From NCBI GenBank assembly GCA_016867035.1, contig VGKO01000003.1:1-45000 (forward strand): a DNA stretch of 45,000 bases. Direction: 5' to 3'. This DNA comes from Candidatus Pacearchaeota archaeon. Lineage in GTDB: Archaea > Nanobdellota > Nanobdellia > Pacearchaeales > GW2011-AR1. Below, one piece after another: positions 2,350 to 14,249 of this stretch. Every line of letters begins with the position of its first letter. Positions within the stretch are counted from its first letter, which is position 1. Position numbers and translations under genes: made by a program. The notes under the pieces were generated by a model. That model searched no databases. It worked only from the letters and a program-made list of their open reading frames with translations, and was not told where the DNA came from.

Positions 2350-5211
2350 TTAAACCTCCAAGCTAACTACTTTGCTAATTTTTTCTTGCATGCTAACTCC
2401 ATAAATAACAGGACTTTCGGTTATGAGCGAGTCGTTGTGAGTTATTATGATATATTGTCCTTTGTTCATGTAGCGTTTGAGTAGAGCCGCAAGTCTTTCG
2501 CTATTTCTTCTATCTAAAGCAGCATCTATTTCATCAAAAATATAAAAGGGATAGGGTTTGTATTCTTGAATTGCAAAAATTAAGGATAAGGAGATTAAAC
2601 TTTGTTCTCCTCCTGATAAAGAATGAGTATCAAAATACTTTCCTTTTCCAACCTTAATGAGCATTTCTACTCCTGCTTTAAAGATATCTTCTTTATCTAC
2701 AGGCTCAAGAGTTGCTGTTCCTTTTGTGCTTAGTTGTGAGAAGTTTCTTGAGAATAATTTGTTTAATTCTTCTAGAGTTTGTAAAAATACCTTTTTCTTC
2801 TTTTTATCAATATCCTCAATTACCTTTAGTATCTCGAGTTTTTCTTCTTGTATTTTATTTACTTTTTCTTGAACTTTATCATACTCAATTTTAACATTTT
2901 CATAGACTTCTAGGGCCTTGAGGTTAACAGTACCTATTCTTGCAATAGTATTTTGTAATTCTTCTATTCTTTTTCTTAATTCATCGATACTTGCGCGCAT
3001 TACTCGCGTTTCACCATAACTTTTAGCTTCTAACTCAAAGGTTTCACGCTGAGCATTTAACTGAGCTCGCTCAATTTTTGAATTATTAATTCTTTCTTCA
3101 GCCGCATGCTTATCATTTTGTTTATGCATTAAATCTCTTTCGAAAAAATGCACTCTCTCTTGTAGTTTGTTTTTCTCTTCTAAAGCTTTGCGGTACTTGT
3201 CTTTTAATAATTGATCTTGGTCGGATTTTTCTTCTAGCAAGGTTTGTTTTTCTTCTACAAGTTTAGAGACTTCTTCTAAAGACTGACTTATTTCTTCAAA
3301 CTCCCTTGCTATTTCCTTAAGAATATTTTTATTTCTTTCAACTCCTCTTTGCTTTAGTGTAACTTCTGTTCCAACGTGAGATTCTTCATGCCTTTGTAAT
3401 TCTTGTACCTCAAGTCTTAGATTATCATAATTTGTTTCACTTGTTTTCAAACTAGAAACTTCATCTTCCATTTTATCTTTCTTTTTTTCTAAATCTTGAG
3501 CTTCTTTTTGTAAAATCTTTAGTTCTTCTGTGAATTTTCTCAAAAGCTCTTTTTTCTCGTTAATTAAATCCAATCTCAATAAGTCTTGGCTTCTTTGTTT
3601 AATTTCATTTTCTATTTTAAATATTATTTCAGACTGTCTTTCGTTTAATTCATGAAGTTGTTTAATGCTTTTTTCGGAACTTGAGATTTTATTCTCGCTA
3701 TCTTCAACTAGCTTCTTGGCCCCTGTAATAACATGGTTAATGTGGTCTTGGGTTATTTTTGTTTTACATAAAGGGCAGATATCAAGTTGAGATACCTGAC
3801 TCTGAATTTTCTTTTGATTTTCAATTTCTTTCTCACAAATAGCAATTGTTTTTTCACAATCGTTGCGTTTTTTTGTGTTTTCCGTTAATTCTAATCTAGA
3901 CTTTTCAAGGTTTGTTTTTAAAATTACTATTTTTTCTTTATGAACTTCTGCAGAATCTTTAATAGATATTTCAGATTCCATTTGTTGAATCTTACCATAG
4001 GTATTTTCATAATCATTCTTGATTCTTTGTATCTGCTTTTGTTTTTCATCTATCCTTGAAACTAAATAGCCTAATTGAGATTTTAAGATATAGAGCTTGC
4101 GCCTTTGCTCATCCATTTGGTCGAGTTGTTGCTTCTTCAGATCAAGGTCTTTTTTAACACTCTTGCCTTTGGATTTTGATAATTCTAGTATTTCATGTTC
4201 TGCTGTTTGAATCATTATACCCAACTCGGATTTTCTCTTTTCCATTTCACTAATTTTATTTTCAAAATCGTTTTTCTTAAAATTTAATCCGGCAAGGTCT
4301 GCCCGCAAATCTGCTATCTCGCGATTAATTTGATCTTGTTCTAAACCCGAACTCTTCTGAACATTAGAGGATATATCATTTATCTTTTGATTTAAAATAG
4401 CAATTTCTTGCTCTGTTTTTTCTATAACTTCGCGGATTTTTCTGATAGAGTTTTCTTCTCTCTCTATGCTCTTATTAATTTCTTCAAGTGCTTCATTTTT
4501 TTCAGATAATTGCTTATTAGCAATAGAGGCTTTACAGACAACAACTTCTTCTTGAAGTTTTTTGAATTGAAGTGCTTGGCGACGCTCATCCTCTAGGTTT
4601 TTAAGATAGGCTGTTCTTTCTCGCAGGATTGCATTAGCTTCTTTTAGCCTTTCATCGGTTTTCTCTAGTTCAGCTAAAGACTTCTGTTTTCTCATTTCAT
4701 AAACCCCTATACCTGCAACTTCCTCAATAACCTCACGTCTTTGGTCTGGCGGCATTTTAACAAAACTATCTATTTCCCCCTGTAAAACAATATTAAATCC
4801 ATTAGGATCAATTCCTGCTTGAACTAATAACTCTAGAATTTCCTGGCGAGTTTTAACTTCATCATTAATTTTGTATACTCCTTGGCCGTTTTTTCTGAGA
4901 ACTCTTTCAATTACAACTTCCTCGTTGCTTAAAGAAAAACCCTTATCAGTATTATCAAATACTAGTTTGACCATTGCTTCATGAGCTGGCTTGTATTTCT
5001 CTGTTCCTGCAAATATTAAATTAGATAACTTTTTTGCACGCATGCTTTTAGAGCCAAGTCTTCCAAGCACAAAGCAGATTGCATCAGTAACATTGGACTT
5101 TCCAGAACCATTTGGGCCCACAATTACATTCATTGTATTCTTGAAAGGAATTCGCGTTTCACGAGCAAAACTCTTGAAACCATGTATCACCAACTCTTTT
5201 ATGAAGGGCAT
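2350..5211 (-). CDS. smc: SMC-family ATPase with a Rad50-like zinc-hook motif at the hinge position
   Basis: Walker A GPNGSGKSN, SMC N-terminal signatures (IKELVIHGFKSFA; LQGEIDSFVKMPPDQRREVIEEVAGI), C-terminal LSGGEQSL and FYIFDEIDAALD; long coiled coils; CPLC at residue ~479 of 953. Confidence 0.93.
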   Translation of the reverse strand: MPFIKELVIHGFKSFARETRIPFKNTMNVIVGPNGSGKSNVTDAICFVLGRLGSKSMRAKKLSNLIFAGTEKYKPAHEAMVKLVFDNTDKGFSLSNEEVVIERVLRKNGQGVYKINDEVKTRQEILELLVQAGIDPNGFNIVLQGEIDSFVKMPPDQRREVIEEVAGIGVYEMRKQKSLAELEKTDERLKEANAILRERTAYLKNLEDERRQALQFKKLQEEVVVCKASIANKQLSEKNEALEEINKSIEREENSIRKIREVIEKTEQEIAILNQKINDISSNVQKSSGLEQDQINREIADLRADLAGLNFKKNDFENKISEMEKRKSELGIMIQTAEHEILELSKSKGKSVKKDLDLKKQQLDQMDEQRRKLYILKSQLGYLVSRIDEKQKQIQRIKNDYENTYGKIQQMESEISIKDSAEVHKEKIVILKTNLEKSRLELTENTKKRNDCEKTIAICEKEIENQKKIQSQVSQLDICPLCKTKITQDHINHVITGAKKLVEDSENKISSSEKSIKQLHELNERQSEIIFKIENEIKQRSQDLLRLDLINEKKELLRKFTEELKILQKEAQDLEKKKDKMEDEVSSLKTSETNYDNLRLEVQELQRHEESHVGTEVTLKQRGVERNKNILKEIAREFEEISQSLEEVSKLVEEKQTLLEEKSDQDQLLKDKYRKALEEKNKLQERVHFFERDLMHKQNDKHAAEERINNSKIERAQLNAQRETFELEAKSYGETRVMRASIDELRKRIEELQNTIARIGTVNLKALEVYENVKIEYDKVQEKVNKIQEEKLEILKVIEDIDKKKKKVFLQTLEELNKLFSRNFSQLSTKGTATLEPVDKEDIFKAGVEMLIKVGKGKYFDTHSLSGGEQSLISLSLIFAIQEYKPYPFYIFDEIDAALDRRNSERLAALLKRYMNKGQYIIITHNDSLITESPVIYGVSMQEKISKVVSLEV

Positions 5212-5307
5212 AACAACCTAAGAGAAAGAGGATATTTAAAGATTATTAAGAAACATAACGCTCTATTACTTTAAGATAAGCCTGGTTTAAACCAGCTATA
5301 TCAAAAA

Positions 5308-5970
5308 TTACCACGCGCTTAAAACCTGCTTTTTTACAAACTCGAGATCTTTTTCTAGTAATTCTGGGAGGAGTATTTTTTCAAATCCAAAAATACCGCG
5401 ACTTATTGTTCCAAGCCCTATTGTATAATTTGTTTTGGCTTTAATTCCAAGCAAGTTTTTCCTTATTCTTTTATTAACAATACCTAGAGAAAGACTTGAA
5501 TAATACATGGGACTTTTCTCGGTTTTAATTGGATAGTCTAAACCCAGCCATCCCATTAATTTGAATTTAAAGGGATATTGTGCAGTCATTATTCTTGAAC
5601 TATTTTTTTTCATGAAATTAGAGATTAATCGTTTGTTTTTGTTGAATTTAAATAAATTTTTAAAGAAAAGCACTGGCTTTAGTAAGGGTAGTTCTAAATC
5701 CATTAAAAAAGTTCCCTTGAACCTTGAGAGTTCCTTAAATAAAACCTCGAGCTCATTTGTATCTGAAAAACCGGAAATCCAATAAGAATTTTTTAGTTTG
5801 GGCCAATAACAGCACTCTATTTTTTTATTTATTTTAATAACTTGTTTCTGAAATTTGTGAAATTCTGCTAAAGATTTCGTACCAATAAATACTCGCGATT
5901 TGAAATCTAATAGTTTAAGCTTACCCAAACTCCCTTTTTCTGGAAACTCGGCATAAAAATCAATCCTCAT
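5308..5970 (-). CDS. Conserved-looking hypothetical protein
   Basis: 220-aa intact ORF, no family recognised. Confidence 0.5.
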   Translation of the reverse strand: MRIDFYAEFPEKGSLGKLKLLDFKSRVFIGTKSLAEFHKFQKQVIKINKKIECCYWPKLKNSYWISGFSDTNELEVLFKELSRFKGTFLMDLELPLLKPVLFFKNLFKFNKNKRLISNFMKKNSSRIMTAQYPFKFKLMGWLGLDYPIKTEKSPMYYSSLSLGIVNKRIRKNLLGIKAKTNYTIGLGTISRGIFGFEKILLPELLEKDLEFVKKQVLSAW

Positions 5971-6072
5971 AATTAAAAAAAGCCAAGCACCTATTTAAAG
6001 ATTATTAAGGCTATTAGGTTTATTTTTTTTAATGACATAAATACTTAAATAGCTATTATGGCTTGTTAATTT

Positions 6073-6327
6073 ATGTTTGGAAGAAAAAGCCTTTATGAAG
6101 AAGTTGGAAGCTCCCCACAAAGTTATGCTCCTTTAGCAGGACTTATGGCTGAATTAAAACCCATCATGGGAAATACTAGAGGGATATTCGAAGTATTTAG
6201 GAAAAGGTTTCAACAATTTGATACTAAAAGTTTAGAAAGATTTATTGCAAGATATGATGGGCAAGTTAATGTTCCAGAAGCAGTATATATGCTTCAAGCA
6301 GCTAAAGAAGTTTATGCAAAAAGATAA
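6073..6327 (+). CDS. Small hypothetical protein
   Basis: 84-aa ORF fitting a promoter-bearing gap between genes. Confidence 0.45.
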   Translation: MFGRKSLYEEVGSSPQSYAPLAGLMAELKPIMGNTRGIFEVFRKRFQQFDTKSLERFIARYDGQVNVPEAVYMLQAAKEVYAKR

Positions 6328-6335
6328 AGAATATC

Positions 6336-7043
6336 CTAGAGTGTAGTTTGCTTATGTTTTACTTGCTCTTTAACTTGCTTGGCAAGTTTAGCTTCTCGGA
6401 AGGTTGCCCAGCTCTCTCGGAAAAAGCCCTTTAACTTGGGATTATCAACATATTTTTTCAGAAACTCTATTGTTGTTGGGTCGCTTGGATAACCGCTTCC
6501 AAAATCTTCGCCCACTATAGATTTTATTTTTTCTATCTCTGCATCTCTTGTAACCTTTGCTAAAATACTTGCGGCTGAAACAACAGGATAATTAAAATCA
6601 GCCTTATGCTCGCAAATAATTTTTGATGCAAGCTTTTTTTCATTAACATACTCAAGTAATTGTCTTTTCCAACCCTCTGTATTGATTGAAGGACAGTCCA
6701 AGATTATTTTTAATCCTGCTTTCTGAGCTATTGAAAGATTTTCAGTTAATTCATTAATTATACTTGCAGCAGCAAGGGCTTCAACTTGATTTAAATTCAA
6801 GCCTTGCCCGAAACCTGTATCGATTTCCTTGGGGGTTATTATCTTGAACTTAAAGTCTTTTGTTATTTTTTTTATTTCTTCAAGTATTCTTTCGCGTTGT
6901 TGTGGCGATAGAAGTTTGGAATCTTTGGCTCCTGCTAGCTTTAAATCATGCTGTTTTTCTGCAGGAATTAATACTCCTGCAAGCAACATTGGACCCATAA
7001 CAGGACCCCGGCCTGCATCGTCAATACCTATTAGGTATTCCAT
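6336..7043 (-). CDS. rnhB: Ribonuclease HII
   Basis: IGIDDAGRGPVMGPMLLAGVLI N-terminus, conserved downstream acidic motifs (ILDCPSIN, HKADFNYPVVSAASILAKVTRD). Confidence 0.93.
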   Translation of the reverse strand: MEYLIGIDDAGRGPVMGPMLLAGVLIPAEKQHDLKLAGAKDSKLLSPQQRERILEEIKKITKDFKFKIITPKEIDTGFGQGLNLNQVEALAAASIINELTENLSIAQKAGLKIILDCPSINTEGWKRQLLEYVNEKKLASKIICEHKADFNYPVVSAASILAKVTRDAEIEKIKSIVGEDFGSGYPSDPTTIEFLKKYVDNPKLKGFFRESWATFREAKLAKQVKEQVKHKQTTL

Positions 7044-7093
7044 AATTTTTGTTAGAGAATAATCTTTATATATCTTTTACTCTTCTAGTTTAT

Positions 7094-13250: not shown

Positions 13251-14249
13251 ATGTACTTAGAAAAAAGAAAAACAAAAAAAGGTGAAAAATACTATTTAGC
13301 ACACTCTTTTCGCGAAGGTGGTAAAGTAAACAAGATTAGGGTTTATCTTGGTTCAAATGTTGCTATTCATATTATTCAACAAAGACAGGAGAAAGCTACA
13401 GAGTTATTAAAACAACAACTTAATAGTTTTAAGATAATCAGAAGCCCTATCAATACAAATTTTCTAAGGCGTGAAGAATCACTTATTAAAAAACTGAAAT
13501 TAAAGACTCGATTAAAAGTTATACATCTCTCGGAGAGCGATTGGGAAAGATTTACACAGCTTTTTACTTATAATACTAATGCTATTGAAGGTTCTACTAT
13601 AACCCAAGAAGAAGTTTTTGATATACTCCAAGAAAATAAATGGCCATTTTCAAAACCTAAAGAGGATATTTCAGAAGCTTATGGTGTTGCAGAAGCAATA
13701 AAATATATTAGAAAATCACGAGAACATATTTCGCTTGCTTTAATGCTTAAATTACATGAGATAATCTTTCATAATTCAAAGACTTTTGCAGGTAAGTTTA
13801 GAGAAAAAGGAGTTGAAGTTGGTATTCGCGATGGAACAGGCAACATAGTCCACTTGGGTGCTCCTTCTTCAAGGGTTGCAGGTTTACTTGGTGAATTGGT
13901 TAAATGGTATAATCAAAATAAGAAAAAATATCCCCCTATAGTTCTTGGGGCTGTTATTCATAATCAATTTGAATATATTCACCCCTTTGAAGATGGAAAT
14001 GGGAGAGTCGGAAGGCTTCTGTTAAATAATATATTGATAAAAAATAAGATGCCCCCTGTAAATATATCTATGGAAAGTCGCAAAGAATACTACGAAACCC
14101 TTAGATTATTCCAAAGAACAGGCGATATTAAGCCTACTATTGACTTGATACTTCGAGAGTATCATGAACTGGAGAAAAAATTAAAGAAACAGGAAAAGGA
14201 AAACAAGAAAGGCAAACTAGATAAAAAACCCAGAAAAAAGAAAATTTAA
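13251..14249 (+). CDS. Fic/DOC family protein (putative AMP-transferase)
   Basis: Fic motif HPFEDGNGRVGRLLLNN; N-terminal inhibitory-like motif TNAIEGS; Lys-rich tail. Confidence 0.92.
   Translation: MYLEKRKTKKGEKYYLAHSFREGGKVNKIRVYLGSNVAIHIIQQRQEKATELLKQQLNSFKIIRSPINTNFLRREESLIKKLKLKTRLKVIHLSESDWERFTQLFTYNTNAIEGSTITQEEVFDILQENKWPFSKPKEDISEAYGVAEAIKYIRKSREHISLALMLKLHEIIFHNSKTFAGKFREKGVEVGIRDGTGNIVHLGAPSSRVAGLLGELVKWYNQNKKKYPPIVLGAVIHNQFEYIHPFEDGNGRVGRLLLNNILIKNKMPPVNISMESRKEYYETLRLFQRTGDIKPTIDLILREYHELEKKLKKQEKENKKGKLDKKPRKKKI

Follow-up and report, generated by a model that had tools for sequence, protein, structure and literature searches.

The window (the whole stretch of DNA that was analyzed, 45,000 nucleotides) carries on its minus strand an uninterrupted smc gene at 2350-5211, with an ATG start at 5211, which encodes a protein of 953 aa followed by a stop codon. 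Intact, full-length homologues of this gene are present elsewhere in the order, which is very probably Pacearchaeales (Nanobdellota/Nanoarchaeota). The N-terminal head (residues ~1-169; 4705-5211, minus strand) includes GFKSFA, the Walker A motif GPNGSGKS (residues 32-39; 5095-5118), LQGEID, and EEVAGI. The C-terminal head (residues ~791-953; 2353-2841, minus strand) includes the ABC signature LSGGEQ (residues 865-870; 2602-2619) and the Walker B motif FYIFDE (residues 889-894; 2530-2547), after which comes the D-loop. Both heads were supported by the SMC_prok models and by the Pyrococcus Smc head structure; the Walker A, signature, and Walker B motifs were assigned from the sequence. Between the heads, also on the minus strand, are an N-terminal coiled-coil arm (residues ~170-474; 3790-4704), a putative zinc-hook tip, the DICPLCKTKITQDH region (residues ~475-488; 3748-3789), and a C-terminal coiled-coil arm (residues ~489-790; 2842-3747). 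The tip contains CPLC at residues 479-482, with C479 encoded at 3777-3775 and C482 at 3768-3766. In all, GFKSFA, GPNGSGKSN, LQGEIDSFVKMPPDQRREVIEEVAGI, LSGGEQ, and FYIFDEIDAALD were found in the protein, together with DICPLCKTKITQDH. The original prediction had proposed a 953-aa protein with SMC head motifs and a first cysteine near residue 479 (codon 3775-3777), at the protein midpoint. The ORF and all the quoted head motifs were confirmed by sequence, Pfam, and NCBIfam, and C479 is indeed the midpoint of the 953 residues.

Pfam assigned SMC_N and AAA_23 to the protein. With the NCBIfam models, it scored 523 bits for SMC_prok_B and 504 bits for SMC_prok_A, compared to 112 bits for the archaeal SMC-related (ASRP) model and no more than 87 bits for the Rad50 models. 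Both SMC_prok scores were under the curated cut-offs (567 and 729, respectively), as expected for a protein without part of the model. The closest solved heads were those of Pyrococcus Smc (5xei, E 8.6e-101). By sequence, the heads of the window protein are those of a canonical SMC.

When the arms were measured from conserved anchors near the heads to the hook, the median lengths were 282 residues on the N-terminal side and 279 on the C-terminal side, and this near equality places the hook at the center. By a hand calculation, the hinge-bearing SMC from a sister genome (L100) carries approximately 320-330 residues on either side of its 114-residue hinge; the hook SMC thus corresponds to such a protein minus the hinge and about 40-50 residues of each arm.

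The neighbors of the smc gene are an unassigned ORF and an RNase HII gene. An ORF of 220 aa without a Pfam match (5308-5970, minus strand) lies directly upstream of smc on the same strand, and a Fic/DOC family protein is encoded at 13251-14249 on the plus strand.

Homology of the tip to Rad50 zinc hooks

An alignment of 76 sequences spanning window residues 400-560, with identities to the window protein of mostly 18-38%, contained only two invariant columns, C80 and C83, which are the cysteines C479 and C482 of the window protein. The proline of CPxC (P81) and the histidine of EH (H91) were conserved at 90% or more. The Pfam zinc-hook model PF04423 (Rad50_zn_hook) matched 68 of the 76 aligned sequences and, in genome searches, reached E 5e-9 in the middle of SMCs from the order. 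The window SMC alone gave only a weak match to PF04423, below the cut-off (E 0.0021 in the genome search and 0.015 for the fragment), and the strong hook statistics are therefore those of its relatives and of profiles. It is on these that the predicted Rad50-like CxxC hook was upheld.

A profile of the hook region searched against the PDB retrieved 1L8D and 6ZFF, both from the P. furiosus Rad50 hook, in first place (3.8e-8). SMC-hook and Rad50-hook profiles matched each other reciprocally, and no match was obtained when hook profiles were compared with hinge SMCs or hookless SMCs. In hhalign, the 70-residue SMC tip aligned with Rad50 hooks of the same order at 2.9e-20 over 68 columns. After masking the CxxC in both sets of tips, the match was still 9.3e-14 over 68 columns, against 0.0027-0.17 for control segments from other parts of the arms. 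The two kinds of tip have the pattern KIs.L..CPxC.......EH in common. In the AlphaFold2 model (mean pLDDT 97), the window tip folds into a helical hairpin whose short turn carries C479 and C482, and the two top Foldseek matches in the PDB were both chains of 1L8D, with weak E-values (0.012-0.021) and a target-normalized TM-score of 0.83 for chain A. The Pyrococcus hook 1L8D is thus the best PDB match of the tip by sequence and by fold. The homology of the CxxC turn of the SMC tip to Rad50 hooks is shown by sequence; that the tip forms an antiparallel helical hairpin and turns as a Rad50 hook does is a model prediction. The reading of the protein as an SMC/Rad50 chimera was upheld because this homology persists even with the cysteines masked.

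A chance CxxC was ruled out by the invariant cysteines and the masked-tip match. A convergent origin, in which a CxxC arose independently in a hinge-less SMC as a disulfide or zinc clasp, also had to be considered. Families in the order with neither hinge nor hook make a hinge-less intermediate conceivable, and hinge-less SMCs without CXXC are known from marine Actinobacteria (PMC12153180). Against convergence stand the masked-tip alignment, far stronger than its controls, and the pattern common to SMC and Rad50 tips, and we consider it unlikely.

Loss of the hinge across the order

In the window genome (751 kb in 80 contigs, 94.6% complete), the genome-wide search returned one SMC-like match, the window protein itself, and the Pfam search found no SMC hinge anywhere. 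A hinge on a separate gene was ruled out by these two results. ScpA is encoded on contig C6 (12743-13810) and ScpB on contig C30, and a separate Mre11-Rad50 pair is encoded on contig C19, with Mre11 assigned by eye. Many relatives in the order also encode a separate Rad50. The smc gene is not adjacent to scpA, scpB, or mre11, so that its partnership with ScpAB rests solely on their presence in the same genome. The Rad50 and Mre11-like genes of C19 (~3660-7050; L180 and L181) adjoin each other and are each split over reading frames (two in the case of Rad50), with several frame shifts within ~3.4 kb; sequencing error or decay may be responsible, and Rad50 is intact in relatives.

Matches to the window protein were found in 130 of the 132 genomes of the order. 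Within the window family, most were full-length (41-71% identity), and the same architecture of ~950-960 aa recurred in more than 100 genomes. The Pfam SMC hinge (PF06470) did not exceed its cut-off in any of the 132 genomes, with positive controls, whereas ScpA was detected in 120 and ScpB in 125 of them, the window genome included. A phylum-wide draw of 279 genomes comprised 38 order members and 241 genomes of sister lineages; a hinge over the cut-off was present in 228 of the latter and in none of the former. The remaining 13 sister genomes had SMC fragments only, or no SMC match. Hinge loss therefore coincides with the order. The predicted absence of a hinge thus held at the level of protein, genome, and order, and an assembly deletion or frameshift of the hinge was ruled out by an architecture common to more than 100 genomes with intact homologues. 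A single-protein search of named genomes had returned five loci only, one of them a Clostridium SMC.

Long SMC sequences from the order (at least 500 aa; a few genomes counted twice) contained the CxxC in 90 of 98 cases, and the other eight were proteins of ~800 aa. The trait is accordingly order-wide, although some members have also lost the hook.

Several genomes departed from the common pattern in other respects. In one relative (L051:470-4921, genome G048), the smc gene has an intein at Walker A with splicing and LAGLIDADG domains, an insertion of ~530 residues; longer SMC ORFs occur in G010, G035, G079, G130, and G009, where a Walker A insertion is inferred from length and match position. 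Three near-complete small genomes of one genus outside the order but in the same class (G230, G255, G357) yielded no SMC match of any kind and no SMC hinge. Two genomes binned with the window family carry a second, bacterial-looking SMC (L049, on G120:C22, ~760 aa; L050, on G118:C30, a fragment), neither with a Pfam hinge; these may be contaminating contigs or a further hinge-less SMC lineage.

Head trees, which took in no ASRP and no SMC5/6-related sequences, placed the proteins of the order, with or without the hook, in one group (support 99/100 with Rad50 as outgroup). This group sits beside the hinge SMCs of the same class, and Rad50 stands apart at 100/100. In another tree, from which Rad50 and bacterial rows were left out, the split between the order SMCs and hinge SMCs received 100/99.

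The window protein could be imagined as a Rad50, an Mre11 partner acting in break repair whose heads have drifted towards SMC. In favor of this reading are the Rad50-type hook and a size between those of the Rad50s of the order and of SMC. It is all but excluded by the head scores (523 bits with the best SMC model, no more than 87 with any Rad50 model), by the 100/100 separation in the head trees, and by the separate Mre11-Rad50 pair of the same genome and the separate Rad50 of many relatives. Model scores and head phylogeny together ruled out a Rad50 identity, and the possibility, raised at the outset, that the heads lie inside Rad50 was not borne out.

A second rival identifies the protein as an ASRP of the Sph/coalescin family, that is, a hook-bearing archaeal SMC relative without a kleisin role. 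The protein is archaeal and hook-bearing, and it does match the NCBIfam ASRP model at E 3e-32. The score of 112 bits, however, is well short of the cut-off of 300 and far under those of the SMC models; the outcome was the same for three divergent homologues with a hook and for two without, and the protein is the sole SMC-like match in a genome that retains ScpA and ScpB. We regard this identity as very unlikely.

The hookless ~800-aa SMCs (L036, L037, L041, L043, L044, L046-L048) belong to sister families with shorter arms, and neither a hinge nor a CxxC was found in them. Topology tests rejected both the hookless proteins as one clade (AU p 0.0006) and the hook proteins as one clade (AU p 0.0002). 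As the hookless proteins do not form a single clade, the hook was likely lost more than once, and because families without it exist, it cannot be indispensable in every part of the order. Their middle was predicted, from only six sequences, as arm, short strand, helical hairpin, short strand, and arm (pLDDT 88). Foldseek returned mainly SMC arm segments for it, with weak E-values, and no dimerizing module was identified.

The simplest reading, which we consider likely, is one replacement of the hinge by the hook near the base of the order, after which the hook was lost at least twice; descent from a hinge-less ancestor that gained the hook later is possible and was not excluded. The hook itself would likely derive from a Rad50-like (or ASRP-like) tip that took the place of the hinge, probably in one gain. 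In a bolder form of the replacement reading, which we consider more likely than not, the only condensin of the whole order is hinge-less, a Rad50-like hook took the place of the hinge in the common ancestor, and several families then lost it, leaving shorter arms and a helical tip of unknown dimerizing power.

Proposed function of the hook SMC

SMC heads, equal arms, the absence of a hinge, the invariant CxxC, and co-encoded ScpA and ScpB genes are shown by sequence, and together they point to a condensin that has a hook where a hinge would be expected. We infer, without biochemistry, that the window protein most likely serves as the SMC of an Smc-ScpAB condensin, a Rad50-type zinc hook having taken over the position of the hinge. 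The original prediction of an alternative condensin architecture is supported to the same extent by ScpA and ScpB in the genome and the order.

In the proposed mechanism, two protomers would each give two cysteines to one zinc ion at the apex, forming a homodimer through four cysteines with arms of ~45 nm, as estimated from residue count; no zinc-binding or dimerization data are available. ScpA would bridge both heads, with ScpB on ScpA (there are no binding data), and head engagement driven by ATP would load or compact DNA as in other Smc-ScpAB complexes, again without compaction data. Since no hinge is present, DNA capture could involve neither the opening of a hinge nor its contact with DNA, and the working parts would be the head/kleisin side and the arms.

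This inference of function rests on two published experiments. A B. subtilis Smc fitted with the P. furiosus Rad50 hook sustained normal growth in rich medium, and the authors of the chimera described the nature of the dimerization domain as "surprisingly uncritical" (PMC5344682). Conversely, fission yeast Rad50 was functional with the MukB hinge replacing its hook (PMC6969161).

The hook could instead be a regulated, zinc-dependent gate, or could join condensins in trans, in which case the working unit would be unlike Smc-ScpAB. Zinc affinity and geometry are undetermined, and Rad50 hooks have been proposed to act both within and between complexes. Human Rad50 hooks, however, act as constitutive dimerizers (PMC6969161), and a plain dimer fits the equal arms and the invariant tip, making a gate or trans joiner improbable.

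Comparison with known systems

It has long been asked whether the hinge of SMC proteins serves as an entry gate for DNA, as a site of DNA binding, or as a mere clasp. No report of a canonical SMC that naturally bears a hook was found in the open-access papers searched, a set that left out most subscription papers and preprints. Laboratory swaps hinted that a Rad50 hook can stand in for the hinge, and evolution apparently did likewise, in a swap kept across most of the order and with natural replicates that later lost the hook. These natural hinge-less condensins, encoded with ScpAB, form a set for testing the role of the apex. If the bolder reading is true, hinge opening and hinge-DNA binding are dispensable for SMC function in nature. 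Dimerization modules may also move among members of the SMC superfamily, which bears on the relationships of SMC, Rad50, and ASRP.

The window SMC resembles the Smc of Smc-ScpAB (P. furiosus, B. subtilis) in its heads, arm layout, single SMC per genome, and co-occurrence with ScpA and ScpB; it differs in lacking the hinge, in its zinc-hook tip, and in its arms, which are shorter than in a same-class SMC with a hinge. With the Rad50/SbcC hook (1L8D, 6ZFF; PF04423) it shares tip sequence, predicted fold, and apical CxxC, but its heads are SMC and its gene is not paired with mre11, Mre11-Rad50 being encoded separately. The ASRPs (Sph, coalescin/ClsN) are likewise archaeal members of the SMC superfamily with a zinc hook; they form their own head clade (PMC9389158), and the window protein does not reach the ASRP cut-off. 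The hinge-less SMCs of marine Actinobacteria (Sussfeld et al., 2025; PMC12153180) also have SMC heads and have lost the hinge, but they are bacterial and without the CXXC of the window SMC; in architecture, it is the hookless ~800-aa SMCs of Pacearchaeota that resemble them. The engineered B. subtilis Smc(zinc-hook) of 2017 (PMC5344682) likewise has heads and arms of SMC and, where the hinge would be, a Rad50 hook; that protein was made in the laboratory, whereas the Pacearchaeota version is natural and fixed across most of the order.
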